Positions 31,770 through 63,313 of a DNA stretch of 64,000 nucleotides are shown one piece after another. Position numbers and translations under genes: made by a program. The notes under the pieces are model-generated. The model had not been told where the DNA came from. It saw only the letters and a list, made by a program, of their open reading frames with translations, and did no database searches. Position 1 is the stretch's first letter. Every line of letters starts with the position of its first letter. The DNA lies in contig JASKOT010000001.1 in assembly GCA_032158125.1 (NCBI GenBank), positions 1,420,124-1,484,123 on the forward strand, given 5' to 3'. This DNA is from Papiliotrema nemorosa (lineage: Eukaryota; Basidiomycota; Tremellomycetes; Tremellales; Rhynchogastremaceae).

Positions 31770-34700
31770 TCAACTGGTACTTTGGGTCGTGTAATAAGAC
31801 GCGACCGAGCCTGAAGCTCTCGGCAGAGGTACCTCGTCGACATGAGCAATCTCAGTCATACCATTCGTTTCGCCTGGGGGACCGTAACCACCACCACCGG
31901 CGGTATCTGAATTATTAGCTCCGTTAGGACGGACCGTATAAAGACGTACGAATAATGATATGGTCTCCCTTCTTCATGACACATTCATTGTTCCCTCCCA
32001 AGCTGATGAGCCGGAACGATCCGTCCGGCATTCCCCTTCTCCAGTAATTTTTGGCCTTCTCTCCAGCGTGTCCTCCAGCCATACCGTATGGTGCGACAGC
32101 GCGACGTTGAGAGAGGATCTGGAGCTCCACCTCGCGTGTAAACTCGATATCACGTATGCAGCCATCTCCTCCTCGGTATTGTCCCGCGCCACCACTGCCG
32201 TGACGTTGAGAGAACTCGTGGATGATGACGGGGTATTGTCGCTCGATAAGCTCTGGATCACCAATAGCCGTCTGAGACGTCAGCTGTGGATCCAGTGGAT
32301 CGAGGCGATACTCACGTTGGTCATGTGCGTATGCACGCAATCTTGTCCTTGCCATGTAGGTCCGGCTCCAGCGCCACCGGCGATAGTTTCATACTGACAA
32401 CGTCGGCGGGGTCTCTTTCTAGAATTAACAATAGTATAACTCACGTATCCGAAGCCTTTGCCTGAATCACCTCCATAACCGAATGTCAGGTTGTTCATCG
32501 AACCCTGCGAGGCACCACACGCTTGGAAAGCCCGCAATAGGGTGTCAGTAACCCGCTGTGACGTCTCGACATTACCGCTATGTGGAGTCAGCATGATATA
32601 ACGCACAGATGGATGCTAAACTCTACGTACCCCACAGTAGCAGCGTCTTCTGTGGGAGACAAAAAGGTTCCTTCGGGAATGACAATGTCGATAGGAGCGA
32701 GACAGCCCATGTTGAGCGGAATATCGATGTTGATGAGACATCGTAGGACGTAGATCACCGCGCTATAGAGTAAAGCGGTAGGCGCGTTGAGGTTATTGTA
32801 ACTGACATATCAGCATGAAATACTCAATCAGAAGGTAGGACAAACGATTGTGGAGAAGTGCCCGTAAAGTCAAACACAGCTCCACCCGTCTTGGGGTCGA
32901 TATCGATTTTAAGGTGGATCTCCGTCCCATCGTCCATCTGGTCGACTGCTTCTAGAGCTTGGCCTTTGAAACGCTGATGTACCTTAAGCAGCATGTCCCG
33001 GACGGCGGCTTCCGCAGTGCGTTGGATCGCGTGCATGTAAAATTGGACGCTCTCGATGGAGCTTTCAGCGATCAGACGTTGAATGAGCTGAGCTCCGCGA
33101 TGACTGCCGTCAGCAGGAGAGAGCATTCCGGTGGTAGCAGCTCACCAGGAAGCAACCTGTGCCTTCAGATCAGATATGTTATCCTTGAGAGTTCTCGTCC
33201 CGCTACAGCCAGGGTATCGAGCAGGTTCTTCGGAGAAGATGCGTATAACGCCTGCTTCATCGAACACCCCATTATTAACCAGCTTGAACGACTTGACCTG
33301 CGCGCCTTCTTGCCACAGCTCTTTGGAGAACGGAGGCATGCTGCCCGCTGCGATACCACCGATATCCGCATGATGAGCTCGGGCGGCCGTCCAAAAGACA
33401 ATCTTGCCCTTGTGGAAAGTGGGTACGAGGACCGTGACGTCGGGCAAATGCGACCCTCCAGCAGCTGGATGATTCGAGACAATCACATCTCCCTCGACAA
33501 GTCCTCCTTCCCGTGCATAGTAATCCGACTGCCATTTGACGGCAAATGACATGGCGCCCAGATGAGCTGGAATATGGGGGGCATTGGCGACCAGACCGCC
33601 ATCGGGAGCGAAGAGAGCGCAACTGAAGTCCAAGCGTTCTTTGATGTTGATTGAGATTGCAGTCTGACGTAATACATTGCCCATTTGCTCGGCGATGGAC
33701 ATGAAGCGGTGGCCCATAACCGATAAATGGACGGGATCGACGTGTTCCGCATCCAAAACGGCTTTGACAACCTTCTTCTCGGCGAGGTCGATCAACACGT
33801 GCTCAGGCAAGGCGGTCGCTACCCAGTCTGGTTCCACAAGAATCGTTTGCGTCTCGTCGAACAGGATGGCGGGACCTGTGACTTGCTCTCCCGCCGCTAG
33901 CTTGTTGAGGGGAATGGTCGCCGTGCTTCGGTAGCCGGAGTTTTCAAAGTAGACCTGTTTGGAGGAGAATGGCTTGGTGTCGCATTGGCGGAGGTTTGCG
34001 TTGGTGTAAGCAGCATGCGGTGTCTGGACAGCTGATCCGGTGCTGCGTCCGGTGGCTCGAATCCGAATATCTTCGGCAAGAATGTCCCGGTTCTCAAGGA
34101 CGAATCCGAATTGCTTTTGATGCTCGATAGCGAATGCTCCCGCAAAATCGTGATCGGCGGGCTCTTCGATCATGAGTTGTGTCGAGCTGCCCTTGTAGCG
34201 ACAGTTGAGGTATCGTTCGCTGTATATGCTGCTCTCGTCGAATCCCTGTTTGCTGAGGTTTTCGGCCCCTTGACCTTCCAATAAAGCGAATTGATCCTCC
34301 AGATGCGAAGCGATCTCGGGCCCAAGCGTGAGAGCAGCAGGTCGTTGCACCTCGGAAACAACGTCGGCAAGGGACATACCATAGGCAGAGAGGATGGATG
34401 AGAAGCGGGGAAGGATGACTCGGGGAATGTCCAGCGCCGCTGCGATACCAGTACCCATTTGACCACCAGCGCCACCAAACATAACCAGGTGGTGAGCAGA
34501 AGCGATATGTCCTCTCGCTTCAGTCAGTCTAGTCATCAGCGTTCACCTCATTACACCTATCCTCTAATGACTGACGTTCGAATTGGGCGGCAGATGGCTT
34601 CGTTGGCAACCCTCAGGAAGCCTGCAGCAATTTCCTCAATAGTTACAGGCGCTAGCGAGGCATCTCGCTCATTGTTAATCTGGATTCTCAACTCCTCAAA

Positions 34701-36191
34701 AAGTCGAAGACTGGCTTTCACATCCAGCGGTTCGTCCTCGTTTGGCCCAAAGATTGCGGGGCTAGGATTAGCAACACCACTGCCACGATGCGCAGCACCA
34801 CTCACAAATGCTCTGGTAATAATCGGCCGAGAACCAGATTCGCATCCGTGATAGCCAGTGGCCCGCCTTTTTTGTAACACGCAGGTCCAGGGTGTGCTCC
34901 GGCAGACTCTGGGCCGACGACAAACAGCCCGTTCCGATAGAAAAGACGAGATCCTCCTCCCGCGGCAACGGTGTTGATATCGAGCTGTGGTGCTTGAATG
35001 ATCACTTGAGCCACGGCAGTCTCGAAGACGTGCTCGAGCTTGCCGCTGTACCTCGACACGTCCGTACTTGTTCCACCAATGTCGCATCCGATAAGAGGGA
35101 CCGCTTCGTCCTCGTCGAAGCATGTCCTGCTGAAACCGATTACACCACCCGCCGGTCCGGAGAGAATAGCTCGAAGACCGCTGAAATTGTTCCAGGTGCA
35201 GAGACCGCCGTCAGACTGCATGAACAACAGCTTGTTGCCAAATGCTGCAAGTCCGCCCTCGAACCCTTCGCCAAACGACTCGAGATACCGACGAGTGACA
35301 GGGGTGAGGTAAGCGTCCGCAGTGGCAGAGTTGGCACGCGCGACGATTTTGATCTATAATATCAGCCAAAGTTCATCAGGATAAATTCGATGACACGCAC
35401 CATCGGCTGTAGTTGGTGTGATACCGATACAGAGAACCCCTTGGCGAGCGCTAGATCCGCGACAAGCTGCTCGTGGTCTGTGAAAGTGTATGAGTGCAGC
35501 AGAGCAATGGCCAGGGAGTGAATACCCTTGCTCCAGAGCTCATCGAGCTGCCTCGAGACAACCTCAGGATCCGGTCGACGCAGGATACGGATAATCTCGC
35601 CTGTCTTTCCAATCTTGAGCGCCGGATCACTTTGCACGTCGATGGTCCCCGTCTCCTCCACCTGGGCCGACGTCTCGATGGTCACCCGCTCATCTATCTG
35701 TACAACCTCGTCGTACAGATAAGCCAGCTTCTTGACGCTCAGATCAAAGATGTTTGGTCGAGCTTGCATCCCAATCTTCATGACGTCCTGGTACCCCCTT
35801 GTCGTCACCAATGCACTCCTTTCTCCCTTTCTTTCCAGGAGAGCATTGGTGGAGACCGTCGTACCCATCCGAATCGATTCTACAGCGTCCAGCTTCAGCT
35901 TTTGGCCCTTGGGTATCGTCTCGCCAGTGACAGTCTGGAGTATTCGGCGGATGCTAGTAGTCAGTCTCAGGGTTCCATGTGGGTTCCGCACCATTCTGTA
36001 GGTGCATCATCATAGTTTGCCGGGTCAACGGAGAGTAGCTATATCATCAGTCTGTATTCAAGCGACCGTTCATAGAGAACACCTACTTTCACGACAAAGT
36101 CCTCATAGCCAGGACCTCGAGAGCAGATCGAGTCGGTGAAAGTACCTCCCCTGTCGATTGAGATTCTGGCTTTGGCTGGGATGGAAGGCAT
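31770..36191 (-). CDS. 5-oxoprolinase / ATP-dependent hydantoinase (fused HyuA-HyuB)
   Basis: About nine exons give a fused two-domain protein near 1,280 residues, as in eukaryotic 5-oxoprolinases. The ATG at 36191 ([20 protein letters not shown]) is used; an upstream in-frame TTG is ignored. HyuA-type blocks are [65 protein letters not shown] and [24 protein letters not shown]. HyuB-type blocks are [65 protein letters not shown], and the C-terminal GGGGYGPPG reached through an intron with a GTACGT donor near 31930. The enzyme opens a cyclic amide with ATP: 5-oxoproline to glutamate, or an N-methylhydantoin/hydantoin to the carbamoyl amino acid. Its position beside hydantoin-pathway genes makes the second option worth considering. 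It shares a divergent promoter with a Zn2Cys6 regulator. Confidence 0.93.
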
Positions 36192-36401: not shown

Positions 36402-36420
36402 TCTCCGGTCGACTTCCGGC
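36402..36420 (+). promoter_or_regulatory. Candidate Zn2Cys6 operator, CGG-N7-CCG
   Basis: CTCCGGTCGACTTCCGGCC lies in the 581-bp divergent region (36192-36772) between the oxoprolinase and the regulator. A near copy (17 of 19 bases) occurs at 41365-41383 before the MFS permease. The paired CGG triplets match what dimeric Zn2Cys6 factors bind. Otherwise this intergenic region holds no recognisable gene. Confidence 0.5.
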
Positions 36421-36772: not shown

Positions 36773-39693
36773 ATGGAAAGCCCTCTGGACGCTGCGTCTC
36801 AGCCCGCAAAGAAGCGGACGCGTAGTAATGTCACTAAAGCCTGTCTGAATTGTCGGAGAAGGTATGCCTCATGATTCAAAACAAGTGTACACTCATTTGG
36901 CAGAAAGGCGAAATGCGATGGGCAGCAACCGTCGTGCCGTACATGTGTGTCCTACAATGTCAGTTTTCTCACTCGAATTCCCTACACCGAGAGTTGAGCT
37001 CTAGGATGTATGCGCTTGGGCCGGTGACGGAGAGGACGGTCGCAAACCTGCATCCCGCCAGTATGTGGTGACACTCGAGAATCGGATCAAAGCTCTGGAG
37101 GCATTGTTACGGAAATCCGGCCACGCTGCTCTACCGGATGAGGAGGATACAGGCTCACGATCCGAGTCGGACGAGGATATACCTGCTGCAAGGAGTGTGG
37201 ACCAAGCCACTCAGAGCATGCTTCACTTATATGTGCGTGAAGTCTTGTCTGCAAGAGATCGTCTGTTCTTAGACTAGATGGGTAACGCAGGCGAAGAAGT
37301 TCACTTTCACGGTCCCACAAGCGCCTTTGCCCACTCATCGACCGCTCGTCGAGCGACCGTATCGGCCATCGACTCGGTACCCGATTTCCCCCTGGATGCA
37401 CCACACGACTATCGACGACATCTGCCCTCGACTGTGGCTCTTTCTGCCACCGAGCACAATCGAGTCTTAGATCGGTTCTTCCGGTTCTATGCCTCGTGGG
37501 GGATGCGAGCAACAGCCAAAAGTTTCCACGCCGATCTCATCCGCTCGGTAACGTTACCGCCCAATACTCCTCGTGTGCGGTTCTCCTATTACAGTCCATT
37601 TCTGCACAATATCATCCTAGCCATTGGGCTGCGCTTTGCAGACAGTGCCAACTTGCGGACTCACGCGACAAGGAGCTTGTTTGCAGACGAGGCGAATAAG
37701 TACATGAGAATTGAGATGTCTAGACCAGTACTGGCAACTGTTCAGGCCCTAGGTCTCATGTCAAGTTGGTACTCGCTGTCCGGTCAGCATTCGACCGGCT
37801 GGGTATACTTTGGACTTGCGGAGAGACTGTCGCAATCCAGTGAGCACGCTCCAGGAGCATCGAGAACCGGGGCTGAAGCCGCAGTGGGTCTTCACCTAGA
37901 CTGCGCTCATTTGGTCGAGCAAGGGAGAATGAGCGATACGGAGATGATCCTGGTGAGTAGGTCTCTGTCCATCGTAATTCTTGAAGACTGATGTTTAGCG
38001 CCGCGATACCTTTTGGAACATATTTTGCCAAGAGCAGTGTTGGTCGGTCTATATCGGAAGGTGTCACAGCGTGCAAGAGTACAAGTGAGTTGTTCGATTC
38101 CACTGCCGCTGATTAAACTCGCCGTTAATTGCAGTACGCCGCTACCGCAAATCGACGAGACCATGGACCAGCTTCCTTGGCGTTGGGACGATATCGAAAC
38201 GTCCACTGCCAATAATCTACCCCCGCAGCCCAGCATGTACAGCTCAACATTCCTAGAATCGGCCAAGCTCAGCCGCATCATGCAAAGAGTCATGGCGACC
38301 CTGTGAGCACATCTTCAAAACCACTATTTCCGAAAGACGTCTCATGTCCAGTTATTCTCTGTCTGCGGATATGAAGAAGATCGAACGACAGAATGCAATC
38401 ACAAAGCTCGGGTGAGTCTCCCTCCTTTTGACCTGTAACGGAAGTCTGACTCCAGCTTGGCTATCGATGCGTGGAGCGAACAGCTTCCCCCTAGCCTCGT
38501 TATATCAAGTCACTCTGAGAAGAATGCCCTTCCGCACATCATAATGCTTCAGCTCGCAAAAGAATGGACGATAATCTTGACGTATCGACCGCATTATCGA
38601 CCAATCATAGGAGCACACCATGAAAGCCCAGAGAACAGCACCACTGACAAGCGCGATGTTCACACTGTCGCTGTTCAGGTGAGCTCATCGCGATATGGCA
38701 CCTGCGCTTACAGTTCAGCGTTGCGATCGCTCGGCATCCCGGATTAACACACTGTTGCGTATCTATGAAGACCGCATCGGTCTTCGTTTCTCGCCCCCAA
38801 CGCTCACGCACATTGCCTTCACGGCCGGGACGACTCATCTACTCGCCGCAGTACACACCCGGTCGGTCAAGGCAAAGGCGGAAGCTCTGCAACGCGCGAA
38901 GCACTGCACGCAATACCTTCGCCTCGTTGCGGTCTCCTGGGATTCAGCCGATTCGAAAGCGAGCATCCTCGACAGTCTGATCAATGATTACGCTCCGCCG
39001 TCAAATGACCAAAGGGATACACCAGAAGAAACGAGCTCTCACTTGCAGCCTGATGCGAATGATTCGACAGGTGGTCTGCCCAGACAGATGGCCTCCACAT
39101 CATCATTGCCCATTCTCGATCACCCTCAGCATGCCGAGCTGCCAACGGCACCGAGTTCCGACTTAAGTACACTCTCTTCCTCTTCCGATCCTGCTCAGTC
39201 ATCGCATGACGCTCTGCAAGCGATGTTGGAGAGATTCCAGCGCAATGGCACCTTTAATTCCGGAATTCACCAAGTGCCTTCCGGAAATCAGCAGGCAATT
39301 GCACCTCAGTCAGCGCTGCCAGCTAGCTTTTCGCCTAGCGAATTGTTCCGAGGGGCACCGACATCGATGACTGTCGATGACCCGTACTACTTCACTCAAT
39401 CCGTTACAGGTCTTCGAGACAACATGTTTCAAGGCGCAATCTCCGCCGGTAACTCACTGCCTCAACACACATCGACGATCGATCCATTTCTACAGTCACT
39501 TTTCGCTCATATTAGCTATCCTCCCCTCCAACAATCTGAGCGGTCAGAGTATATGTCTGCGCGAGCGCCCCAATCGGTTCCTCTGCCCGACAGCCTTGGC
39601 CAGACTGGCTCGATATCTCCTACATTCTGGGACAGTGCCACAATCAATGGCTTGTTCGGTCTCAGTCCGTCGACTGGGTCTTTTCCGCATTGA
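36773..39693 (+). CDS. Zn2Cys6 transcription factor with fungal MHR domain
   Basis: Multi-exon gene starting MESPLDAASQPAKKRTRSNV. The binuclear zinc cluster is split by two introns: TKACLNCRRR, KAKCDGQQPSCRTCVSYN, then DVCAWAGDGEDGRKPASRQY, giving six Cys. A dimerisation coiled coil follows (YVVTLENRIKALEALLRKSG). The fungal middle homology domain starts near ATEHNRVLDRFFRFYASWG and runs through YYSPFLHNIILAIGLRFAD, ALGLMSSWYSLSGQHSTGWV and RRDTFWNIFCQEQCWSVYIG. The last 250 residues are rich in Ser, Pro and Gln (activation region), ending PSTGSFPH. By position it probably controls the hydantoin/D-amino-acid cluster, especially the divergent oxoprolinase; that is inference. Intron borders between 38.0 and 38.8 kb are approximate. 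Confidence 0.9.
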
Positions 39694-40013: not shown

Positions 40014-41012
40014 ATGGCGATCGATAGCAAGGCTCTGACGACCGCGCAAGACGTCCGAAAAGCGTGTCGAAGTAGGGGGTTCCGAGGTGTGACGACGGGA
40101 CTCGCTCCGCACCAAGTCCAAGCAAATCTCATCGTTGTGCCTCAAAATTACGCGTCAGATTTCCGCAATCTGTGCAGGCGGAACCCAGTCTCATGCTGCC
40201 TGCTTGGAGAGAATATCGCACCTGGAGACTGGCGATTGTCCAAGCGACTCACACCGACCGGGGACAGTGACGTCCGGAAAGATTGCCCCGGATACAACAT
40301 GTGAGCTGAATGAGAGTTGCATCTGACTAATGATGAAGCTACGAGAATGGTAGATTGGTAGCTCAGGACATCCCAGATATCGATCAATACTGGTCCGAGG
40401 ATTCTGTTGCGTTTCTCAGTAAGTTGACCCCAGGTCGATCTTATATGGCCGTTTCTTAACTCGTTCAGTTGGGTGCTCGTTCACCTTCGAGCAGGCCTTG
40501 GTTGCCAATGACCTGGTCCCACGTCATCAAGAGACAGGTCGAAATGTACCAATGTACAAGACTACCTATCCACTCTTACCTTCCGGAGGTGCGTTGATGG
40601 CAGCGCATCGTGGAGTTTTGACTGACTCGAACAGTGTTTTCGGGCAATATGGTCGTATCGATGAGACCATACAAGGCAGAAAACATAGACAGAGTGCGTG
40701 AAATCACCCGTCCGTACGTCGAGACGCATGGAGAGCCAGTCGCATGGGTGAGCACATGTCAGTTAGACCGCACACAAGCGACTAATAACGCAGGGGGATG
40801 AAGGTGTCAAAATGCTGGGTATCGCCGACATCCTCAAGCCAGAGTTTGGTGACCCACCGGTGTTCAAAGAAGGAGAAATCCCTGTCTTCTGGGGCTGTGG
40901 GGTGACTCCTCAATTGGTGCTCATGGCCAGCAAGGTCGACGGGGTCTGTATCGGTCACGCACCGGGCAAGATGCTTTGTTTAGACCTGGCAATCAAGGAC
41001 ACTCTGGGGTGA
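40014..41012 (+). CDS. DUF1445 protein (YcsI / D-glutamate cyclase-like hydro-lyase)
   Basis: About five exons give a single-domain protein of some 270 residues, the usual DUF1445 length. Family blocks read in order are RGVTTGLAPHQVQANLIVVP, FRNLCRRNPVSCCLLG, IPDIDQYWSEDSVAFLIGCS, FTFEQALVANDLVPRHQE, FSGNMVVSMRPYKAENIDR, GDEGVKMLGIADILKPEFG, PVFWGCGVTPQLVLMASKV and IGHAPGKMLCLDL. In animals a DUF1445 protein (DGLUCY) converts D-glutamate to 5-oxo-D-proline, and bacterial homologues often sit near 5-oxoprolinase genes. Here it lies one gene from the oxoprolinase, so a role in D-glutamate/5-oxoproline metabolism is plausible but not proved. No transit peptide is evident. Confidence 0.85.
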
Positions 41013-41364: not shown

Positions 41365-41383
41365 CTCCGGTTGACTTCCGCCC
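41365..41383 (+). promoter_or_regulatory. Candidate Zn2Cys6 operator, near copy of the 36402 site
   Basis: CTCCGGTTGACTTCCGCCC lies 245 bp before the MFS permease start, inside the 615-bp gap 41013-41627. It differs from the 36402 site at two of 19 positions and keeps the CGG-N7-CCG geometry. A long open frame also crosses this gap (41065-41556), but it has no protein-like features and I do not call it a gene. Confidence 0.5.
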
Positions 41384-41627: not shown

Positions 41628-43846
41628 ATGATGGCTCCTGTAGATGTAAGCATATCTGCTCAATATACAGCTGACCATACAGCATGAGAAGAACGATGTG
41701 GGAGCGGATGCTGTCATCCACACCGACGATGATATCCAAATCGACGCTGTTCAAGAGAACAAGCTGCTCAGAAGAATGGACGGATTCATCATGCCCATTC
41801 TAGGTGTATGTATCGCTCTTCAGTTGACTTCGTATGAAGCCCTGACCTGTCAAGGGCTTGTATCTGATGTGCTTCTTGGACCGAGGAAACATGTGAGTGG
41901 TAGAACATCTACCCATTTATCTGCCTGCTGACAGATAAGCGGCTCTGCGAACGTCGCTACACCTTCGATATCTCAAGCATGCGGTTTGACATGTGAGCTA
42001 GCCTTACTGCAGCTGCTCTACACACCTCTGATGAATCAGCGGAGCAATATGGGGCGGTAGTGTCAATCGTCTATGCAACGTGAGTAATCCATACGTCCGC
42101 CGGTACAGGCTGATTCTCAGATACGTTGTTTTTGAGCCTTTTTGGGCCAACCTGCTCAAGATCGCCTCTCCAAGGATTCTGCGTACGTTTCAAACCATCC
42201 ATTTTGTGGTCTCCTGACCGTACAGTCGGGAGTACCACCCTATGCTGGGCTGCACTCACGCTCGGTACCGCTTGGGCCGGCGACTACAAGCATCTTGTCG
42301 CTATTCGACTCTTGCTGGGCGTCTTTGAAGGTCTGTCACAAAAATTGTCTATCCGGCTGTGGTCTGATGTAGTAGCTGCGCTCTTCCCTTGTATCACTGT
42401 GTACGTGATGATGCACTACCGACGGGAGGAAACGGGGCGAAGAATGTCCTACATCTTCTCTTGCGCTGCTTTATCCGGAGCAGTAGGTGGTCTGATCGCT
42501 GGTGGATTGGTCAAAATTGAGACTGGTAACATTGTCGGTTGGCAATACCTCTTCATCGTGAGACCACAAAACGTTGACAATTGTGCATTGCTGAGATTCA
42601 GGTCGAAGGCGCAATCTCATTTGCTCTTGCCCCTATTGCCTTCTTTGCTATACCCACCCGCATGGAAAAAGCCTGGTTCTTGAATTCGTCCCAGCGCGAG
42701 CTCGCAGCTCAGCGATACGAGATCAACAAGCGCAATTACAGCCACGATGAGCCGTTCTCGTGGGTCGAAGTGCGAAGTGCATTGACGGATTGGACGGTAC
42801 GCTCATTGGCTGCTCTGTTCTGTGACGCTCATCCTCAGGTCTACGCCTCAGGAACCATTCAATTCTGTGCCGACATTACATTATATGGTATATCGACGTT
42901 CATGTGGGTAAAATCTCGCTTATGATGCAAGTATGGCTGAGCGTCTAGGCCCCAAATCATCCGCGCTATGGGTTTCAGCAACGTCAAGGCGAATCTCATG
43001 ACCGTTCCAGGCGAGTTGTAACAATACGAGTTGCTTTGGTCACTGACAGGCAGTGTACTTTGTCGGTGCTTGCAGCTTCGTCCTCGTGGCCTACTTCAGC
43101 GACAAGCATGGTATTCGAAGCCCATTCATCGTCCTTGGTCTCAGCTTGAATGTCTTGGGTCAGCGCGGATACATCTGATGGCGAACGTCACTGATTCATA
43201 GGTTTCATTATTCTCATTGCGGTCGAGAATATTGGCGGTAGATATTTTGGTCTTTTCGTTGTGGCTGCGGGTATGTCCCCTTACCATTTGAAGTTCATGT
43301 CTCTAATCTTCAAGGCTTGTACATTACACCCGGGCTCAACTGCACATGGATCGGAGGCAACATGGGCTCTCACTTCAAACGAGCGACTGCTGTCGGTATG
43401 AATCAGCTGATCGGTAATTCGTCGGGTGCAGCGTAAGTCTCGTATGGTCGGTTGATGGCACGTCTGACTGGAGCAGCATTGGCAGCATCTTCTACAAGAC
43501 GCTCGCTCCTCGATATCTCCGGTCCATGTATATCTCTCTCGGACTCACCGTGCTAGGTCTACTCCTTGCGATTATTCTCGTTCGTGATGTTTTACCCCTA
43601 CAATTTAAATACTGATGATTAGGCACTTCATTACAAGCGTGAAAACGCTCGACGAGACAAACTTGTCGCAGCCGGAGCTTTAGATCAACCCGAACTAGGA
43701 GATAAGAACCCCCATTTCAGGTACGTCTTCCCACATAACGAAGTGCTACAGCTCACAAGTGAGATATTGGCTCTAGAACCGCAAGCGGTCTCGATTGGTT
43801 GGTTTTTTTTTCCCTCAAGCCGCTATGTTGCGCTTTGATACCATGA
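41628..43846 (+). CDS. MFS anion permease, Dal5/allantoate-permease type
   Basis: A gene with about twelve short introns. Exon 1 encodes only MMAPVD; exon 2 continues HEKNDVGADAVIHTDDD. Diagnostic text is LLRRMDGFIMPILG then LYLMCFLDRGNI, GLTSEQYGAVVSIVYATYVV, FEPFWANLLK, CWAALTLGTAWAGDYKHL, RLLLGVFEGL, HYRREETGRRMSYIFSCAAL, GWQYLFIVEG, GISTFMPQIIRAMGF, and FKRATAVGMNQLIGNSSGA near the end. These are typical of the anion:cation symporter group that imports allantoate, ureidosuccinate, nicotinate or dipeptides. Within this cluster, uptake of an N-carbamoyl amino acid is an attractive guess. The 3' end is uncertain: the stop is at 43844-43846 if the last intron (43720-43776) is spliced, and at about 43836-43838 if it is not. 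Confidence 0.88.
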
Positions 43847-45020: not shown

Positions 45021-45346
45021 GGTGGCAGTGAGTTGGATGCGATACGGGGGGCGATTATGGGGCGTGATCTTCAATTCACGACTCATATGGGATGCCATGC
45101 ATGCTTCGACTGGATGCCATCTGAACAAGACGGCAAAGCGTCGGCTTCATGCGAAGTCGAAGACATGGCCGTACGGCGAGCGACCGTGGGCGGTTTGGCC
45201 GGTCGCATCGCCGGCAGAGATAAGGAAATGCACCAATTAAATTATGTCTTATATCAAGCTTGTCGTGCGCTCCCTCTCCCGTGTATATATAAGTTGATTA
45301 AACGCGTTCATTAGGTAACTCATCTTTGGCGAAGACCCTCAACACC
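45021..45346. promoter_or_regulatory. Divergent promoter of aldolase-like and NCS1 permease genes
   Basis: This 326-bp region holds ACGG-N7-CCGT at 45173-45187, GCCGG-N8-CCGGC at 45198-45215, a GATA site AGATAAG at 45218-45224 and a TATA element TATATATAAG at 45284-45293. The first two look like Zn2Cys6 targets; the GATA site suggests nitrogen control. All are sequence matches only. Confidence 0.5.
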
Positions 45347-47140
45347 ATGACAATCATGGACAAGATCCCCGGAGTCCAATTGCGGATTCCAAGGGAGACC
45401 GCAGTCACCACTGTCAGCGTCCCCGGCAGCACTGTCGGTGAGCAGATTGAGGCGGAACCTGATATGCTGCCCGTTCCTCCACTCTCCGAAGGTGGCAACC
45501 GACAATGGGGTATTCCTAGCATGTTGGGTTTCTGGATTGCCGAAGCGTTCGGTATATCACAATATCAAGTCGCCTCTTCTTCCGTCTCTGCGGGTCTCTC
45601 GCCTGGCGCAACCATCGGAGCGGTCCTTCTTGGACATTGTAAGTAGACCTTCGACTACGGCGAAGATGCTCCGCTTACGACAAGTCCTGGTCGCTTGTGC
45701 TAACGCTGCAAACGGCTGGGTAGGATGCGTGTACGGCATCAATTTTCCAGTCTTCGCTCGTTCGTCTTTCGGCCAACGGGGTGTTTTCCTTGCCTTGGTT
45801 TGTCGATCCGTGGCTGCCATCATCTGGGCAGGCACACAGACCTATCAGGGCGGACAATGCGTCGAAGTCATGCTACAAGCCATCTGGCCATCCTTCAAGC
45901 ACTTTCGAAACCACCTTCCAGCTAGCGCCCACGTCACCTCGTCTCAGCTACTGTGTTTCTTCATCTTTTACCTAATTCAGCTCCCCTTCCTTTACATTCC
46001 GTAAGTCGGACTATACCCGTATGCCTGGACACATACTGACGTTCAAGCATGCACAAGCTACGGTACCTGTTCATGACAAAGATCATCATTATGCCCATTT
46101 TCGGTATCGCTCTTTTCGGATGGGCTGTCGGCAAGGCGGACGGCTTTGGTCCCGTATTTGACAAGCCTACAAAGATTATTGATGGTCGCCCCGCTGCGGT
46201 GGTGTTTTTCACCGCCATGAGCAGTGCCATTGCCCCCAAAGCAACTCTTGCCATAAATAGTGAGTAGCACTGTCGCAGCTGATCTCGAGCTCATTGTTCA
46301 GTCGCCGATTTCACGCGATATGGAAAGAGTCCAAAGGTGGTCGCGTGGACCAACGTTATTTCTCTGACTTTGTGAGCTTCGACTTCTACAGAGTCCTCGA
46401 TCAAGGCTCATCACAGCCTCGTGACCCTCTGTGCGATCTTGGGAGTTGTCGTCACTTCTGCGGTCGAGGTCATTTATGGCGTAAAAACCTGGAATCCTCT
46501 CCAAGTCGCCGTTCTTATGGATCGGGCTCCGATGTTCTTCGTCGCCTTTTGCTTTGGATTCTCTGTCCTCTCGACCAACATTTCAGCGAACACCACTGCC
46601 GTTGCCAACGATCTCATGTTAGCGTTCCCTCGTTATGTCAACATCCGACGGGGCCAATTCATCTGCATCATCATCGCCTTGGCTACTACACCGTGGAACA
46701 TTCAAAATTCGGCAAAATCTTTCACCGCTTTCCTTTCGGGTTATTCGGTCTTTCTGGGCCCGGTTTGCGGTATCATGCTGGCAGACTATTGGTTTGTGCG
46801 CCGAAGACAGCTTGACCTACGCAAACTCTACAAGCTTGGTCCCGGCACCGACATGTTCTATTACAGCGGTTTCAACTTGCGCGCTATGGCGGCGTTCTTG
46901 TGTGCCATCGGACCGGTTTTGCCGGGTCTGGTGCGAAGTATTGGTGGAGCAAAAACAGGCGTTGCTGTCGGAGCTAGCTACATCTACTCCGTTGTTTGGC
47001 CGTTCACGATCGTTGTCTCGGCGAGCACCTACATCGCGTTCAATTTGATTGCACCTCATCAAGTCAAAGCAGAGTCTTCGGTGACATACGGGAGAGAGGA
47101 AACTGGCGAAATGGAAAACATAGAGGAGAAAAAGGAATAG
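45347..47140 (+). CDS. NCS1-family permease (allantoin/uracil/hydantoin transporter type)
   Basis: Four or five exons give about 540 residues. The ATG at 45347 (MTIMDKIPGVQLRIPRET) is chosen over an upstream TTG. Core blocks are RQWGIPSMLGFWIAEAFGIS, GATIGAVLLGH, NGWVGCVYGINFPVFARSSF, RSVAAIIWAGTQTYQGGQCV, GWAVGKADGFGPVF, AIAPKATLAIN, DFTRYGKSPKVVAW, NISANTTAVANDLMLAFPRY, and ADYWFVRRRQLDLRKLY. These fit fungal Fur/Dal4-type nucleobase and allantoin permeases; the bacterial hydantoin transporter Mhp1 belongs to the same family. It should sit in the plasma membrane with 12 helices. In this cluster it is the best candidate for hydantoin uptake. Confidence 0.92.
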
Positions 47141-47555: not shown

Positions 47556-48747
47556 CTAAGGCTCTGGGGGAGGTTGTACGCCGCCTTCGGCAACCAGCCT
47601 GCCGTACATTTCGGGCCTTCGGTGCTTCCCTAGGTTAAAAGTCCGTTCTTTCCCTTGCTTGCATTCATCCAGATCAATTTCTGCACACACTAGCTCATCA
47701 TCCTCTGTCTTGGACTCGGCTACAATGTGCCCCTCAGGATCGACGATCATGCTGCCAGCAATGAGAGGGTGGATTCCATCATCGACTCCGGTCCTTGCTG
47801 CGGTTACACAAAACACTGCAAGTCAGCTCCATGGCTGACGACCAATCTCATGAGACCAACTCGAATTTGTATACGCATGGGCTTGCACGACGACTGCTCT
47901 TCAGCTACCTCTGCATTATATCCGCAACGGGCTCACGCTTATGATGGAACATGGCTTCTTGGTAGGCTTTTTCGCGAGAAATGTTCTGGTCCCCTCCCCA
48001 GAGCCTCGGCGCATACGCAGTAGTGTTGTAGCCGCAGCATAACAGCTCCACGCCTTGAAGGCCATAGCATCTCCATCCTTCCGCCCAGCGACGATCATTG
48101 CAGAGTAATTGGCCGACAATGGGGGACGAGCCGCCCGCAACTTTCTTGAGCGAGGTCGCTCGAAAGGCGTTGAAGCCCAAATCGCCAGGTAGGAAGTACC
48201 GCTTCTCCAACTGATTTGTGGTCGAAGGATCCAAGTCAAATGGCTCAGTGGTTCCTGGTAAGTGAATCTGCATAATGAGCTCCGAGGTCATGAACGCAAG
48301 ACTCGCCTTTCGGTACTTGTTGAGCACCTCGCCGGTGGTCCCGCTTACATATACAGCTGTATTGTAGCGTTTCCCCTCCTGCCCGGTGTCTTCTCCGTAT
48401 CCAATCTGCACATCGATGTCAAGTTCTCGTGCCCGGGAAAAGAACTCGACGACGTTTTGGCTACGAGTCACAGGTGTATCTTGTGTTTCGAGCTCATAAT
48501 AGCTAGCTAGCTCGGCGTCATCGGTGATATAGTATCGAGGGAAAAAAGTGGTGAAGGTAGTCTCCGCTTCGATTCAGTACGATCACCATGCATGTCATTA
48601 GCTGGACTCACGAAACACGACAAGTTTCACGCCTTGAGCCGCGGCGGCTTCGAGTAGTCGAATGAGCCTGCCCAGGACCTCCTGCCTGGAGCTTGACCGG
48701 TGTACTGCGCCGACTTGGGCTGCTGCTACTTTGATTATACGAGGCAT
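47556..48747 (-). CDS. N-carbamoyl-D-amino-acid hydrolase (nitrilase superfamily)
   Basis: About five exons. The ATG at 48747 opens MPRIIKVAAAQVGAVHRSSS. The three catalytic sites are all visible: Glu in VVFPETTFTTFFPR (joined over an intron near 48600), Lys in KYRKIHLPG (joined over a GC-AG intron, 48268-48306) and Cys in LLCNDRRWAEGWRCYG. Further DCase blocks are LEKRYFLPGDLGFNAF, GVELLCCGYNTTAY, VVVQAHAYTNSMFCVTAART (via an intron with a GTTGGT donor) and FNLGKHRRPEMYGRL. The match in order and spacing is to Agrobacterium D-carbamoylase rather than to beta-ureidopropionase. It would split N-carbamoyl-D-amino acids into D-amino acid, CO2 and ammonia in the cytosol. It is divergent from the hydantoin racemase. 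Confidence 0.92.
48268..48306 (-). other. GC-AG intron within the carbamoylase gene
   Basis: On the minus strand the sequence reads AAG, then GCGAGT..., then TATGCAG. The 39 nt have no stop and are a multiple of three, so they can be read through as 13 extra residues. Removing them gives KYRKIHLPG, exactly the family motif around the catalytic Lys. Confidence 0.75.
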
Positions 48748-48953: not shown

Positions 48954-49673
48954 ATGTCGAGACCGCTCCGCATCCTCGTTGTCAATCCAAACTCCACAAG
49001 TGCAATCACTGAGGCTCTACGAGGTGTTCTCGGACAGACCTGCCCACCTGATATCGCCCTCACTTTTTTCAACCCTCCAACCGGACCCCCGGGCATCAAA
49101 GACGTCGAAACGGCCAACCAATCTTGCGCAGCCTGTCTGGCAGAATTCACCTCGACATCACCCCGAGTTGATCCATTGGATTATGACGGTGTAGTGATCG
49201 CTTGTTTCTCCACGCACCCTCTCATAGATGCTCTCCGTGGTATTTACGCAGCCAAAGCGCACCATGGACGGGTTCTAGGTATCTATCACGCCGGTGTAGC
49301 CTCAGCTCTCTTGTCTCCCGAGCCATTCGGAATCCTGGCTACCGGTACCGGAGAGAAGCCCAACCTCGTCACCGCTACAGCCGACTTTTTGGGCTCCGCG
49401 GCCTCCTCTCGTTTTGCCGGCGTCCTCACGACAGGCCTGCAGGTGGTCGAGCTTCAGGAAGGAGATCAGAAAAGGGTTGAAGCGGGGATGAAGGACACGA
49501 CAAGGCGACTAATCGCAAAGGGAGCTCGGACTCTGATTTTTGGGTGTGCCGGAATGAGCGGAATGGAGCCGTGGGTCAGATCAGCGGCAGAGGAGCAGGG
49601 CTGTCCTGTCAGAATAGTAGATGGAGCCAAGTCTGGAGTACATATGCTAGCGGCGATGATTCGTGCGGGCTAG
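48954..49673 (+). CDS. Asp/Glu/hydantoin racemase family protein (Dcg1-like)
   Basis: Single-exon gene of 239 residues from the ATG at 48954 (MSRPLRILVVNPNSTSAITE); an ATG at 48930 is also possible. The start motif LVVNPNSTSAITEALR, the first catalytic Cys in VVIACFSTHPLIDALR and the second in LIFGCAGMSGMEPW identify the hydantoin racemase branch of the two-cysteine racemases. GILATGTGEKPNLV and VDGAKSGVHMLAAM also fit. The enzyme would interconvert D- and L-5-substituted hydantoins so the D-specific enzymes can use both. S. cerevisiae DCG1, of the same family, sits in the DAL cluster. Intron-less, unlike its neighbours. Confidence 0.92.
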   Translation: MSRPLRILVVNPNSTSAITEALRGVLGQTCPPDIALTFFNPPTGPPGIKDVETANQSCAACLAEFTSTSPRVDPLDYDGVVIACFSTHPLIDALRGIYAAKAHHGRVLGIYHAGVASALLSPEPFGILATGTGEKPNLVTATADFLGSAASSRFAGVLTTGLQVVELQEGDQKRVEAGMKDTTRRLIAKGARTLIFGCAGMSGMEPWVRSAAEEQGCPVRIVDGAKSGVHMLAAMIRAG

Positions 49674-49687
49674 ATACATATGTAAAG

Positions 49688-52003
49688 TCAGGATGAGAAC
49701 ATGCCGGAAAGGTTCCCCAAGTCAAAGTCCATCATCCCGTTCCAATCCCAGACCATCTGCTGCTCCATGCCGCCCAAAGCTGTCGCTTGCAATGGCTCGG
49801 CTAAAAAGGCAGTGTCCAGTAACAGAGCAGTCGCATCTGTATTGGTACCGAGCAGTGCGTGGACAAGAGGCTGATGCTCGTTCATGGCTTTCAGCCGTCC
49901 CGCCATCAACTTGGCGCGAGACAAGCCGGGCGCAGCAATGTCCCAACCGTACTCGGAGTGAAGGCGACCAAGGGCTCCGACCAAACGAGACAGGAGACGC
50001 ATCGCCTCCTGATTGAGAGCACCCGCAGACGCCATCGATAACCTTATTAAAGAAGACACCGAAGATGACAGGATGTGACCAGCATCTATAGTCAGAGCAC
50101 ATTGACGGATGCCCCACTCACATATCAGCCAGTACCCATCGACGTCATCCGCGTCAAACCGTTCCACGAAATCAACCAAGTCGTGAAAGTATTTCAGATC
50201 CGACGAGTTGGGCTCGAAAGAGGAGGAAAGACCATGGTGTAACTCGAGGCATATGCGCGTGAGCATGCACCGAAAGCCAAGCAGATGAACGAGCATCGAG
50301 CCTGTTCATCAATGAGAGCTACCGTCGCAGAGAGAGATAGGCTTACTGACGCCGGTGGCTCGCAAAGCCATACCAGTCATGTGCGGGCGCCAACGATCCA
50401 TCAGTCCGGTGGAGCTCTTCAAAAGCTCCTTGACATCGGCCACCCGCGCAGTCGTCTCTCTTTTCATGCTACCAAGTGTACAGCATGTTCGCTGAAGCCG
50501 ATGGACCAGTGTGGACAGCTCGCACATGGTGAGAAAGGCGAAGGAAGAATCGCTAGAAGCTGATTCAAAGGTGCAAGCCGCATCGAGAAGGGCGCCTTTA
50601 TCGGGTAAAGGCACGGTTGTATTGTGTACCTGCATGTGTGACGGTCGAGAGTTCACTGGGTCGTCAACAAATACCCATAGATTGTACGCACAGAAGCTCA
50701 TCCATCCATCATGTATGCTTAGCATCCACCACAGGCGAATCCGCAGCTCCTGTTCCCACATCGGTATGACCCAGCTCTTTGGCGACATGTGCATACCGAG
50801 TACCTGGGCCAGCGCAATGGTCTATGCAATCAGTCGTCTGATGGCTTCAACGATGTCAGACTGACCTTCGCCAGCAACATGTAGCTGGCCCTACTGCTGT
50901 TCACGCCTCTCATACCCAAATCCAATACCGCTGCTGCAACGCCCGACAGATTGTTCTCCCCAAGTCCGGCATAGCTGATCTCCAACATACCAGCCACTGG
51001 TGCAGCTAATTCTCGAGTCCGCTTTGAATGGGAGAGTGCTGTCGCGACGATACTGCCAAGGAGCAGGGGGATGTGTGTATCGGTAGGGCCTTGGGGTAGT
51101 ATAGGGATTGCCGGGTGTACTTGCTTGTGGTAAAGGTTGTACAGCTCGGTAGGTGTAAGGTGTAGGGCATGGTTCCGGAGCAAAGCGTGTATATGTGTGA
51201 GGGCTACAGCTCCTGCGGTCGGATGTCGAAAGGCTGACGGTTTTAATACGGGTCTATGCCAGACTCACCCTCGGGTTTGGGGTCCATGACTACAAAGATC
51301 GGTCTCTTGGGATCTTGCGACTGCAATCAGCCAACTATCACGGCAGTGTACTTTACTATCTGTTTGACGTGGGGCCGTCCATCATCCTCGCTATCACCTC
51401 CCTCTCCGATGGGCAACAAGTCGTCCGTCAGGACCACGGTCAAGACTGCGTATCAGCTGCCATGATCCTAAGATGCTCACCATGTGCATCATATCTGTCT
51501 GACTTTGCAAGATTATCAAAAGAAGAGAGCTCGGTGGGGGAAAGTCTTCGGTGTCTTGTTGATTGGGCAGAAGATGGATTAGGCGAGGGATCACGACCGC
51601 GGTCTGGAGACTGCGAACGCCGGTCGTCCAGTACAGATTCGGATCGTGAGCTCCTACCTCGACGAGAAGCGCTCCCTCTGGGTGACGAGACTTCCTCATG
51701 AGGATCCTCCGACGGAGCATTGGTGGATGCACGGGGTTTGCGAGGGGGTGGGGCGGCATCGAATGTACACGGTCTCCCGCCTTCCGCACAAAGCAAGCAC
51801 GGTGGTCCACTTGCATCAATTGTGCAGCGAGCTTTGGCACGACGACAGCGGTCACATGGGCGACTGCGTCGGCTACGAGGAGGTCTACCGGCGCTTGTGG
51901 AGCTCTCGCGTACGAATGAGGTCGGTGGTGGGGGTATAGCGAACGACGTCCCAGCGGGGGCGATGACGGGTGATGCTGCGACTCGGGCATCTATGCTGTC
52001 CAT
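49688..52003 (-). CDS. Zn2Cys6 transcription factor (second regulator in the cluster)
   Basis: About seven exons. The first exon (ATG at 52003) has a full zinc cluster, RPCDRCRRAKARCT then GPPCLLCAEGGRPCTF, preceded by a basic stretch and followed by a long Ser/Arg/Pro-rich linker. Later exons form the fungal regulatory domain: HLTPTELYNLYHKQVHPAIP, LLLGSIVATALSHSKRTREL, LAQVLGMHMSPKSWVIPMWE, QELRIRLWWMLSIHDGW, and MTGMALRATGVS. The C-terminus MEQQMVWDWNGMMDFDLGNL is acidic and hydrophobic, like an activation domain. The regulatory-domain pattern resembles transcription factors of fungal nitrogen and xenobiotic catabolism. Its place between the racemase and D-amino-acid oxidase suggests it controls the cluster. 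The stop is 14 bp from the racemase stop. Confidence 0.9.
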
Positions 52004-52300: not shown

Positions 52301-53510
52301 CTAAAGCCTCGCCAGATCCCCGTTCAACCCTTCCGCAATCAGTCCAGTCACATCTTCAGCGCAGCCCCAACAGCTCTGCCAGCCTGCGCCTCCGTGACCG
52401 TAATTGTACGCCACAGACACATTCTCACCTGCAAGCTGTATGCTTTGGCCCATCTCTAGTCTAACTCCTCCTCTCCTACTCGGACGAAATCCGACCAGGT
52501 GATCGATCACGATCGATTGAACATCACCCAGTGCTTTAGAATGTGCAGGTGGGAGCGATGGGCAGATCTCTACCGCGCGGCGGGCAATGTCCTTCTTGGT
52601 GGCCTCATCGGCGTACGGTGCCCAGCTGTCCACCTCGCGAGTCCCGCCAATGATCACCTCTCCGTTGGACCGAGGTATCACATATGTCCGCTCTCCACCT
52701 TCGGCTCCGTCCAGACTACCCACCTGCCGGGTGAATCCTTCACGGACCCAAGAGGCTTTGACTCTGATCACTTGGCCCCGAGTCGGATAAACCAGACTGT
52801 CCTCAACTCCTCCCAGTGTACGAGCTCCCAAGCCAGCGCAAACAACGACAGATCTAGGCGTGGTCCCGAGCATGGCGAGCAGAAGAGGAGACGCTAGATC
52901 GTCGAGACTATTGATTCGCGCGCGATGGATACGTCCGCCCAGAACCTCTATCCGCTTGACCAATCTTGCTAGGTAGGTTGATGGTGTCATGGTGAGAGAG
53001 GTGAAAGATATCGAGTGATCAGGTTTGAACGGCACATCGAGTCGGTTGACATCGTTGACAACAAACTGCCTTCAGCCGAAACGGCGATAGATGTCACTTA
53101 CGTTTGGATGGTCTTCGTATATCTTCAAGTGCTTGGTCTCCCCAACGTAATATTCTGTTTGTTTGATCATCATGAGACCGGTCTTCTCCCCATCGCGCTG
53201 CCATTCCTCCATCATGATGCGCAACGCTGAACATGAGCAATGCCTCAAATAGCGACTCACTGGAAAGATCCCATCGTCGCTGTCTGTGATCACCATCATC
53301 GGCAAAACTCAGATGGTGAGCGCCAGCGATGGTGGAAGCGTACATGGGATCAAGCGGATCCGAGGGAAGATGGTCTGCAACCACATGGATGGGTATACGT
53401 CGTCGTCTGATGGGCGCGGATTCGAGCAAGCGAATAGCCGTGCTCAGACCAATGATACCAGCGCCAATGACCACGATGGGTCGAGTCCATTGCTTAGTGG
53501 AAGCGGACAT
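52301..53510 (-). CDS. D-amino-acid oxidase, peroxisomal
   Basis: Three exons; ATG at 53510 ([18 protein letters not shown]). The FAD-binding motif [19 protein letters not shown] is at the N-terminus. Next come [31 protein letters not shown] and [27 protein letters not shown], then [32 protein letters not shown] (substrate-carboxylate Arg region) and [15 protein letters not shown], all classic DAAO blocks. The protein ends ARL, which fits the PTS1 peroxisomal consensus. It converts D-amino acids to 2-oxo acids, ammonia and H2O2. In this cluster it is the last step after the D-carbamoylase. It is divergent from the hydantoinase. Confidence 0.93.
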
Positions 53511-53798
53511 GAGGTCGGTGTTCGAGCACGATCTGGACAACGAACATGTTTCTGTCAATAACACTTTGCTACACAATATCTCCGTCCAGGGCAGGCTAGA
53601 GCCCCATAGGCTGCGCTCACGGTATCACGCCGTGGGAGCGGTTTATGCCCCGGCGGGGACCGGCATCGGTTTGACAACTTGGCCTTTTGCCGTTCGCCGG
53701 TTCCTCGCCGTACAAGCGACACTGTGACCTGTTAGAAGACTTCAACCATGCTTCAGCACATCCACTCTTCGTGTCGACCAGCACATCTGTTTACTTTG
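53511..53798. promoter_or_regulatory. Divergent promoter of D-amino-acid oxidase and hydantoinase
   Basis: Within 288 bp there are two CGG-N7-CCG elements: the palindrome CACGG-N7-CCGTG at 53618-53634 and CGGTTCCTCGCCG at 53698-53710. The spacing matches the sites at 36405, 41368 and 45174. This is consistent with common control by a Zn2Cys6 factor. Confidence 0.5.
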
Positions 53799-55544
53799 AT
53801 GAGCCCTTTCGAGTTTGACCTGATCGTGAAAAACGGCATCGTAGTCACCGCTTCGGTGAGTGTTTTGGAACCCCACGCCAGTCATGCATTGAGAAGCAGG
53901 ACGAGACCGCATGCGATATCGGAATCAAGGACGGGATCGTCACTTGTCTTGCGCGAGGGTTGGTTGGGGGTCCATCATGTCGTGTCATCGATGCTGAGGG
54001 AGGCTATGTGACAGTGAGTAGCCCCTATAGCGACAACCCTAGCGCTCACGCCATCTAGCCTGGCGGTGTGGATTCGCATGTTCACATTGGTCAATCTGCA
54101 TCTGGCGCTCGCTCCGCAGACGACTGGACGACAGGGACTCGAGGTGCCATCTCGGGAGGTACTACAACGGTGATAGCTTTTGCCGTTCAAGCCAAAGGTA
54201 AAAAAGTCATGCCCGCGGTGGAGGCGTACTACGAGCTGGCCAAGGACAAGACATACTGCGATTATTCGTACCATGCCATCATCACCGACCCCACAGAAGA
54301 GGTAGTCCGGAAAGAGGTCCCGGAAATGGTCAAGTTTGGCATCACGAGTATAAAGGTGAGCTGAAGCAAGTATCTAGCTAAAGCCAAGGTGTACATGACA
54401 TACCCCCTGATGAAGCTTGACGATCGCCAGATGCTCGATATCCTTGCGGCTGCTCGACAGCAAGGAGTCACCACCATGGTACACGCAGAGAATTCGGACA
54501 TTATCAACTGGATGACGGATCGTCTCATCGCTCAAGGCTTGGTCGATCCAGAACATCATGGCACCGCTCGTCCGCCTATCGTAGAGGATGAGGCTACCAA
54601 TCGGGCCATTTGCTTAGCAGAGGTGGTAGACGCTCCAATGTTGTTGGTCCATGTCAGTACCAAGGATAGTACTCGTGCTATCAGGCGGGCTCAAGGACGA
54701 GGATTGCCTCTGTATGGAGAAACATGTCCTCACTTCGCTCTTCTCACGGCGGAGAAGATGCGGGCGCCGGGCTTCGAAGGGTACGTCAAGGTGGTATCTG
54801 ACTGACTGACAGTGCAAAATGCATATGCGCACCACCCCTCCGATCAGATCCTATGGATCCAGCGGGCATCTGGGAAGGCCTGGCAAACGGTACCTACACG
54901 ACCTGGTCTTCGGATCACGCTCCGTACAACTACGACGACCCACAAGGCAAACAGCTCGGTCTTTCCGCCGCAAATAATCCTACAGGCAACAAACGGGGCA
55001 ATGCATTCAGGGTGCCAAATGGGCTACCGGGTGTCTGCACAAGGTCACCGCTGCTATGGAGTGAAGGAGTAATCAAGGGTCGTATCTCGCGTCAACGGTT
55101 TGTCGAACTCAACTCGTCCAACGCCGCCAAGCTTTACGGTGAGTCAATGGTTCAAGTAACTCAGCTCAAAGTCAGGCATGTATCCTCAAAAGGGGACAAT
55201 TCAGCCTGGTTCCGATGCTGATCTGGTCATATGGAGGCCAGATGCAGCTCGGAAACCGCTCATCATCACTCAGTCTATGATGCATCATGGAGCGGACTAT
55301 ACTCCATACGAGGGTATGGAAATTCAAGATTGGCCAAAGACAGTGATCCTTCGCGGCGTTGTCGCATACGACGGGGATACCAACACGGTGTTGAGTCAAG
55401 TGGGAGATGGGAGTTTCATCAAACGTGGCCTCAGCTCCCTTCCGTGAGTGCTTATTGCCGAGTAGACTGCACTAGCTGACCTTCAGCGGTCCCAAGGGAA
55501 GATCTGATCAATGGCTGAATGATTTCAACCCATATGCTGGGTAG
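53799..55544 (+). CDS. Dihydropyrimidinase / D-hydantoinase
   Basis: Seven exons; the ATG at 53799 (MSPFEFDLIVKNGIVVTAS) fits the family better than the upstream one at 53748. Metal and catalytic residues are visible: GGVDSHVHIGQ (HxH), the carboxylated Lys in FGITSIKVYMTYP (joined at an intron), VHAENSD, LLVHVSTKDS, YGETCPHFALL and WSSDHAPYNYDDPQGK with the conserved Asp. The second half has NGLPGVCTRSPLLWSEGVIK, SSNAAKLYGMYPQKGTIQPG and SDADLVIWRPD. It hydrolyses 5,6-dihydropyrimidines or 5-monosubstituted hydantoins to N-carbamoyl amino acids. The nearby racemase, D-carbamoylase and D-amino-acid oxidase make the D-hydantoinase role likely here. Confidence 0.93.
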
Positions 55545-63302: not shown

Positions 63303-63313
63303 CATACCCATTT

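Follow-up and report, generated by a model that had tools for sequence, protein, structure and literature searches.

Hydantoin catabolism through D-amino acids is known chiefly from bacteria and has found industrial use. Bacterial hydantoin operons, such as those in loci L049, L053 and L058 recovered in this analysis, encode a hydantoinase, an N-carbamoyl-D-amino-acid hydrolase (D-carbamoylase) and a racemase, with the hydantoinase and carbamoylase genes adjacent. The allantoin permease of yeast belongs to the NCS1 class. The nearest fungal parallel is the DAL cluster of yeast, which is described in PMC3646786 and PMC3419248 as subtelomeric and as containing an allantoin permease, the Dcg1 racemase and a cyclic amidohydrolase; according to the same papers, the DAL homologues of Cryptococcus neoformans are not clustered. 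The DNA analysed here (the window, 64,000 nucleotides) is the terminal 64 kb of contig C1 of the basidiomycete Papiliotrema nemorosa, and eleven contiguous genes at 31770-55544 encode the same three enzyme families as the bacterial operons. No paper on a eukaryotic hydantoin-utilisation cluster was among those listed, by title and start of abstract, in a literature search that covered few subscription journals and is weak evidence of absence.

The fungal genes differ from the bacterial operons in being separate, mostly intron-bearing and divergently arranged, and in having a hydantoinase of fungal lineage. They are accompanied by a D-aspartate oxidase, an oxoprolinase, a DUF1445 protein, an NCS1 permease, a major facilitator superfamily (MFS) transporter and two Zn2Cys6 regulators, where the bacterial loci that were read encode an ABC transporter of amino-acid type alongside a DapA-like protein and a LysR-like regulator (labels by eye). 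In contrast to the yeast DAL cluster, an allantoinase-type hydantoinase, allantoicase and malate synthase are absent among the cluster proteins, and a D-carbamoylase and a D-aspartate oxidase are present instead. We lean, by a little over even chances, towards a subtelomeric, co-regulated catabolic cluster for the use of 5-substituted hydantoins as a nitrogen source, biased to those with acidic side chains. A clustered fungal version would show how a eukaryote arrived at this pathway with a set of components that is partly its own.

Gene models and genome context

The five genes that carry the proposed pathway are as follows.

45347..47140, + strand: NCS1, NCS1 permease, 537 aa (PF02133, TIGR00800)
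47556..48747, - strand: CAR, N-carbamoyl-D-amino-acid hydrolase, 339 aa, 4 introns, one of them probably an in-frame GC-AG intron (matches to solved proteins, catalytic residues)
48954..49673, + strand: RAC, Asp/Glu/hydantoin racemase family, 239 aa, intronless (PF01177, 137 bits)
52301..53510, - strand: DAO, FAD oxidase of D-aspartate-oxidase type, 379 aa (match to 9vpf, aligned residues)
53799..55544, + strand: HYD, cyclic amidohydrolase of dihydropyrimidinase/D-hydantoinase type, 503 aa (TIGR02033, PRK13404, residues, tree)

The genome comprises 19.2 Mb in 68 contigs, and the GC content is near 52%. Taken with the short introns of the cluster and the telomere-like array described below, this GC content is suggestive of a basidiomycetous yeast. 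Genes were modelled with a custom gene finder trained on the same genome, and splice sites were corrected by hand. All eleven cluster genes are complete, each with an ATG and one terminal stop, and all except RAC contain introns (62 in total, 60 GT-AG and 2 GC-AG, 32-56 nt long). The finder's first choice of start was an upstream in-frame ATG for RAC (48930) and HYD (53748), for which the starts of an earlier sequence-only reading of the window were adopted; one looser finder run also lengthened NCS1 and CAR, and the final models end where that reading ends them. The eleven genes it had proposed were recovered with their families and coordinates by the gene models and by Pfam, which agrees with the family call for each protein (one regulator, TF2, barely over the cut-offs), and the ends of NCS1, CAR, RAC, DAO and HYD are the same. 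The DUF1445 gene is likewise present, with its end now at 41012, and the five divergent pairs that had been counted are reduced to four (OXP/TF1, ALD/NCS1, CAR/RAC and DAO/HYD; the remaining genes are listed below). The probability that chance would place six other families each at most 10 genes away from the one carbamoylase gene is about 2e-12; this rough, post hoc estimate assumes random gene order and uses family sizes in the genome and a total of about 6,900 genes, a figure scaled up from the 23 genes of the window.

Hydantoinase and carbamoylase

HYD retains H64, H66, K156, H188, H244 and D321, which we take to be the HxH pair, the carbamylated lysine, the two histidines and the aspartate of its family. 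With these residues and a score of 478 bits against the dihydropyrimidinase model TIGR02033 (cut-off 393), it belongs to the dihydropyrimidinase/D-hydantoinase type. Its score of 613 bits against PRK13404 is under the cut-off of 647, so that it is not assigned to that subfamily, and the two best allantoinase models give 217 and 220 bits (cut-offs 358 and 631). The best matches among solved proteins are the dihydropyrimidinase of L. kluyveri (418 bits) and the D-hydantoinase 1nfg (372 bits). HYD resembles the former (2fty) in the metal and carbamylated-lysine residues and in overall sequence, and differs from it in having SDHAPY for SDHCSY beside the catalytic aspartate and tyrosine for phenylalanine two residues past K156.

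In a tree of 84 rows, with a midpoint root and with long branches that drew a program warning, the nine CAR-linked bacterial proteins described below form a group separate from HYD, and as far as the tree rows tell, HYD appears to belong to the fungal dihydropyrimidinase lineage; within it, the join of HYD with the L. kluyveri enzyme is weak (89/37). A recent transfer of HYD from bacteria was considered and rejected, as the tree puts HYD in the fungal group (100/98). The sequence-only reading had called the gene a D-hydantoinase; the dihydropyrimidinase/D-hydantoinase type stands, and because HYD is a diverged fungal dihydropyrimidinase, its activity on hydantoins is putative. SDHAPY is found beside the catalytic aspartate in HYD, in the nine CAR-linked bacterial rows, which form one clade, and in L088, which has no CAR match; of the remaining 70 bacterial rows, 42 have SDHC at this position and 28 lack SDH. 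Where HYD has SDHAPY, a second dihydropyrimidinase-like copy in the genome (C8:654804-656523) has, like the L. kluyveri enzyme, SDHC, the motif of known dihydropyrimidinases; the presence of this copy would leave HYD free for another substrate.

CAR retains E47, K132 and C188, presumably the Glu-Lys-Cys catalytic residues, in their family context. In a search of solved proteins, made with a version of CAR carrying 13 extra residues, 11 of the 27 matches are D-carbamoylases (201-217 bits) and the next protein follows at 44 bits, so that its best matches are characterised members of the D-carbamoylase family. CAR shares 44% identity with 6led (305 columns) and 41% with the L058 carbamoylase (310 columns). 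An in-frame GC-AG intron of 39 nt is probably present at 48268-48306, giving a protein of 339 aa; removal of this intron restores the KYRKIHLPG stretch found in solved D-carbamoylases. A search of this genome found no CAR paralogue.

These two enzymes could also serve reductive pyrimidine or cyclic-imide catabolism, with HYD as a second dihydropyrimidinase and CAR as a beta-ureido acid hydrolase, an explanation to which the position of HYD within the fungal dihydropyrimidinase group and its best solved match, the L. kluyveri enzyme, both lend weight. The other genome copy, not HYD, has the SDHC of known dihydropyrimidinases, a protein labelled beta-ureidopropionase matches CAR at only 39 bits as against the 201-217 bits of the D-carbamoylases, and the achiral products of uracil would need neither a racemase nor a D-aspartate oxidase; we consider this explanation improbable.

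Racemase and permease

No NCBIfam family matched RAC, and its likeness to solved proteins is weak by sequence, the best being the allantoin racemase 5lfd at 37 bits. C84 and C198, presumably the two catalytic cysteines, are invariant between RAC and five bacterial relatives. A structure model, built on six sequences with a mean pLDDT of 74.7, has five allantoin racemases as its top fold matches, followed by hydantoin racemase and then by glutamate and aspartate racemases; the two cysteines and the predicted fold thus point to a hydantoin/allantoin racemase. Since allantoin is a substituted hydantoin, a modelled fold nearest to allantoin racemases counts for the use of hydantoins. NCS1 scores 360 bits against TIGR00800 (cut-off 353), and its sole solved relatives are structures of the hydantoin permease Mhp1 (2jln, 4d1a; 58 bits).

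The same two proteins would also suit a purine or allantoin-type cluster, with RAC as its allantoin racemase, NCS1 and the transporter DAL as permeases for allantoin and allantoate respectively, and HYD acting on allantoin or a related ureide. The parts and position of the yeast DAL cluster (PMC3646786, PMC3419248), the RAC model and the recurrence of neighbouring racemase and NCS1 genes on C8 and C43 all fit such a cluster. Set against them are the scores of HYD, which stays under both best allantoinase cut-offs (217-220 bits, compared with 478 and 613 for the dihydropyrimidinase models), and those of NCS1, which reaches only 206 and 178 bits with allantoin permease models whose cut-offs are 620 and 800. 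A D-carbamoylase and a D-aspartate oxidase are not known to have a role in allantoin breakdown, and the allantoicase and ureidoglycolate families were not found in a Pfam scan of the cluster proteins. An allantoin cluster is accordingly given a low probability.

Racemases of the Asp/Glu/hydantoin family have been acquired repeatedly by fungi, mostly from bacteria, and a racemase null mutant of C. glabrata is reported to have no apparent phenotype, D-amino acids probably not being the substrate of that enzyme (PMC5169069). If hydantoins are used as proposed, many fungal racemases of this family would gain a physiological substrate class; RAC adjoins enzymes that would use its product, and a clustered fungal pathway would make the role of the fungal racemases testable.

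Bacterial neighbourhoods

Prokaryotes, each species represented by one genome, were scanned with HYD; 95 relatives came up, and the 80 best loci were kept. In nine of the 80 (L049, L053, L056, L058, L059, L060, L063, L067 and L074) the HYD homologue is followed immediately downstream by a CAR homologue, which runs past the contig end in L060 and is split across two frames in L067. About 2 kb upstream, a RAC homologue (39-44 bits) is present in seven of these nine loci, and in L056 and L060 the contig stops about 1.5 kb upstream of HYD, too short to check for RAC. Seven of the nine records bear the label Alcaligenaceae or Burkholderiaceae, and two are metagenome bins labelled otherwise. In L058 and L053 the order of open reading frames (ORFs), labelled by eye, is FAD oxidase, racemase, LysR-like regulator, DapA-like protein, HYD, CAR and an ABC transporter of amino-acid type. 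Over all 80 loci, RAC was matched in 10 and CAR in nine; the best-scoring relatives of HYD (L044-L048) had no CAR match.

The sequence-only reading had proposed that permease, racemase, hydantoinase and D-carbamoylase families occur together; all four are found in the cluster, and HYD, CAR and RAC, the combination expected for hydantoin utilisation, are also neighbours in this bacterial group. The bacterial neighbourhood lends independent support to the trio as a functional unit, and does not extend this support to the other fungal members. At 18-5232, near HYD and CAR, L058 also contains HyuA/HyuB-type genes, which match the oxoprolinase OXP of the cluster, and a gene resembling part of a dihydropyrimidine dehydrogenase (label by eye).

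Oxidase and predicted product

The D-amino-acid oxidase of the sequence-only reading is an oxidase of another type: DAO matches the D-aspartate oxidase 9vpf at 405 bits, the best D-amino-acid oxidase at 116 and human D-aspartate oxidase at 88, and so is nearer to D-aspartate oxidases than to D-amino-acid oxidases. A review of human D-aspartate oxidase (PMC8260693) assigns the binding of acidic substrates and the gating of the site to Arg216, Arg237 and His54, with Arg278 as the arginine common to amino acid oxidases. H65, R238, R268 and R319 of DAO align with human H54, R216, R237 and R278 (6rkf), so that by alignment H65, R238 and R268 mark DAO as being of D-aspartate-oxidase type, and the D-amino-acid oxidases 7ct4, 1c0i and 8hy5 lack counterparts of these three residues. 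DAO also resembles 9vpf and the human enzyme in overall sequence; it differs from 9vpf, which has methionine at the position of R268, and from both enzymes in its genomic linkage to a carbamoylase. The C-terminus of DAO is ARL, which we take to fit the peroxisomal signal consensus.

With an oxidase of this type, D-Asp or D-Glu is a likelier end point of the pathway than an aromatic D-amino acid, so that the expected product would be acidic, unlike the aromatic D-amino acids made industrially. Cryptococcus has three putative D-amino-acid oxidases, one of which acts on D-Asp (PMC4489021). Window positions 635-2027, 30 kb off the cluster, encode a further DAO-family FAD oxidase (PF01266).

Other cluster genes and linked copies

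The six remaining genes of the cluster are as follows.

31770..36191, - strand: OXP, ATP-dependent oxoprolinase/hydantoinase with fused A and B parts, 1306 aa, 11 introns (PF05378, PF01968, PF02538, PF19278)
36773..39693, + strand: TF1, Zn2Cys6 regulator, 852 aa, divergent from OXP (PF00172, PF04082)
40014..41012, + strand: DGC, DUF1445/D-glutamate-cyclase-like protein, 267 aa (PF07286, 204 bits)
41631..43838, + strand: DAL, MFS transporter, 513 aa (PF07690), taken by us to be Dal5-like
44064..45020, - strand: ALD, class II aldolase/adducin-like protein, 277 aa (PF00596)
49688..52003, - strand: TF2, Zn2Cys6 regulator, 699 aa (PF00172, PF04082, barely over the cut-offs)

The best solved relative of OXP is the N-methylhydantoinase 7hk5 (345 bits), and from this match a use of N-methylhydantoin or creatinine via OXP was considered. 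DGC scores 279 bits against PRK05463, under the cut-off of 324, and matches 2pif and 3db9 in the PDB; ALD scores 279 bits against PRK06208, over the cut-off of 255. The zinc cluster of TF1, CLNCRRRKAKCDG...CRTCVSYNDVC, is spread over three exons, and some internal splice choices in TF2 are uncertain.

Three OXP copies are present in the genome besides that of the cluster. One of them (C21:119941-123713) adjoins a second DUF1445 gene (C21:117096-117906), which suggests that DUF1445 and OXP are a standing functional pair, and the two may serve 5-oxoproline or D-glutamate. Racemase and NCS1 genes are neighbours at C8:180129-180614 and C8:184009-185087, and again at C43:17696-18133 and C43:18580-19729 (L126, L125). 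Given these linked copies on C8, C43 and C21, the cluster in the window looks like a merger of three modules, RAC-NCS1, DUF1445-OXP and HYD-CAR-DAO. A predicted oxygenase-like gene lies between the racemase and NCS1 genes on C8, and an MFS-like sequence lies near the pair on C43 (both labelled by eye).

Promoter motif

Zn2Cys6 regulators often bind pairs of CGG/CCG triplets. Pairs in inverted orientation were counted at 16 spacings in the seven intergenic regions of the cluster (2,636 bp) and in 1000 simulated sets. CGG-N7-CCG occurs at five sites in four of the seven regions, against a simulated mean of 0.69 sites; none of the simulated sets had as many sites and three had as many regions. 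The sites are as follows.

36406..36418: CGG-N7-CCG between OXP and TF1
41368..41380: CGG-N7-CCG upstream of DAL, one base off the site at 36406
45174..45186: CGG-N7-CCG between ALD and NCS1
53620..53632: CGG-N7-CCG between DAO and HYD
53698..53710: second CGG-N7-CCG between DAO and HYD

The N13 spacing gave three sites (as many in 28 of the 1000 simulated sets), in a number of regions not above chance. Elsewhere in the same genome, with intergenic regions delimited by the custom gene finder, CGG-N7-CCG was found three times in 39 other promoter-bearing regions (28,419 bp) and seven times in all 52 other regions (38,081 bp), and when seven promoter regions were resampled, 0 of 5000 draws gave four with the motif. 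Seven 8-mers are common to at least three cluster promoters, compared with a null mean of 1.6 and a maximum of 5 in 200, a null that counted one strand per region, with the canonical form covering both.

The CGG-N7-CCG sites point to a probable joint regulation of the cluster genes, a possibility that the sequence-only reading had raised from the gene arrangement. They also bear on the proposal that two or more independent nitrogen-scavenging modules merely lie side by side, namely a module of oxoprolinase and DUF1445 for 5-oxoproline or D-Glu, a D-aspartate oxidase acting on D-Asp, and an amidase group apart from these. Separate DUF1445-OXP and RAC-NCS1 pairs elsewhere in the genome, and the fact that no bacterial HYD-CAR locus has a DAO match, speak for such a juxtaposition; a motif common to the OXP/TF1, DAL, ALD/NCS1 and DAO/HYD regions speaks against it, and independent modules seem to us an unlikely account.

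Proposed pathway

For the use of hydantoins, the substrates, direction, joint pathway and regulation would be as follows. NCS1 would import the hydantoin, RAC would interconvert its two mirror forms, and HYD would open the D form to the N-carbamoyl-D-amino acid. CAR would then release CO2 and ammonia from this compound, leaving the free D-amino acid, which the D-aspartate-type oxidase, probably peroxisomal, would convert to the keto acid, ammonia and H2O2. As the type of oxidase suggests acidic side chains, the likeliest class of substrate would be hydantoin-5-propionate or hydantoin-5-acetate, from which D-Glu or D-Asp would arise. DUF1445 and OXP may handle 5-oxoproline or D-Glu in a side branch, and one or both Zn2Cys6 regulators may work through CGG-N7-CCG.

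Several observations weigh against this pathway. HYD scores only 190 and 158 bits with models of hydantoin-5-propionate amidohydrolase (ErtD; cut-offs 650 and 600), so that the guess of hydantoin-5-propionate gains no support from HYD itself, and in the tree HYD, the C8 copy and the L. kluyveri dihydropyrimidinase make up one fungal group (100/98). RAC is only 28-29% identical to five aligned bacterial racemases. Among the 80 bacterial loci, NCS1 is matched in five only and OXP in two, and DAO, DUF1445 and ALD (among six other queries) are without a match. CGG-N7-CCG is absent from three of the seven cluster intergenic regions, those of CAR/RAC, upstream of TF2 and between TF1 and the DUF1445 gene. 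The residues that HYD shares with the CAR-linked bacterial hydantoinases number 11, against 10 and 9 in controls (54 of the 84 rows used, Firmicutes-type rows removed beforehand); this is not above background, and convergent residues were rejected as proof of a common substrate. Five of the 11 positions fall in active-site loops, compared with three of 10 and one of nine in the controls, a placement that is suggestive only, since the loops were defined after the 11 had been seen.

A stronger form of the hydantoin pathway holds that this is the first eukaryotic hydantoin-utilisation cluster and a convergent one, whose hydantoinase would be a recruited dihydropyrimidinase of fungal origin that came together with a racemase, a D-carbamoylase and a D-aspartate oxidase, the whole being specialised for acidic hydantoins that give D-Glu or D-Asp. 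This is put forward tentatively, as a proposal with rather less than even chances.

Probable subtelomeric position and surroundings

A telomere-like (TTAGGGGG)n array at 63256-63302, 7.7 kb beyond HYD, is followed by a poly-G run and then by 187-bp tandem repeats up to the contig end (window 63256-64000), from which the cluster is predicted to be subtelomeric. On the other side of the cluster, a predicted protein of 1291 aa at 23970-28138 has no Pfam family over the cut-off. An ORF of arabinofuranosidase type at 62377-63270 (PF09206, profile positions 1-270 of 315) continues directly into the telomere-like repeat and is probably truncated. Just beyond the cluster, at 58824-60812, lies a further MFS transporter gene (PF07690), presumably Dal5-like, which could be an extra member.

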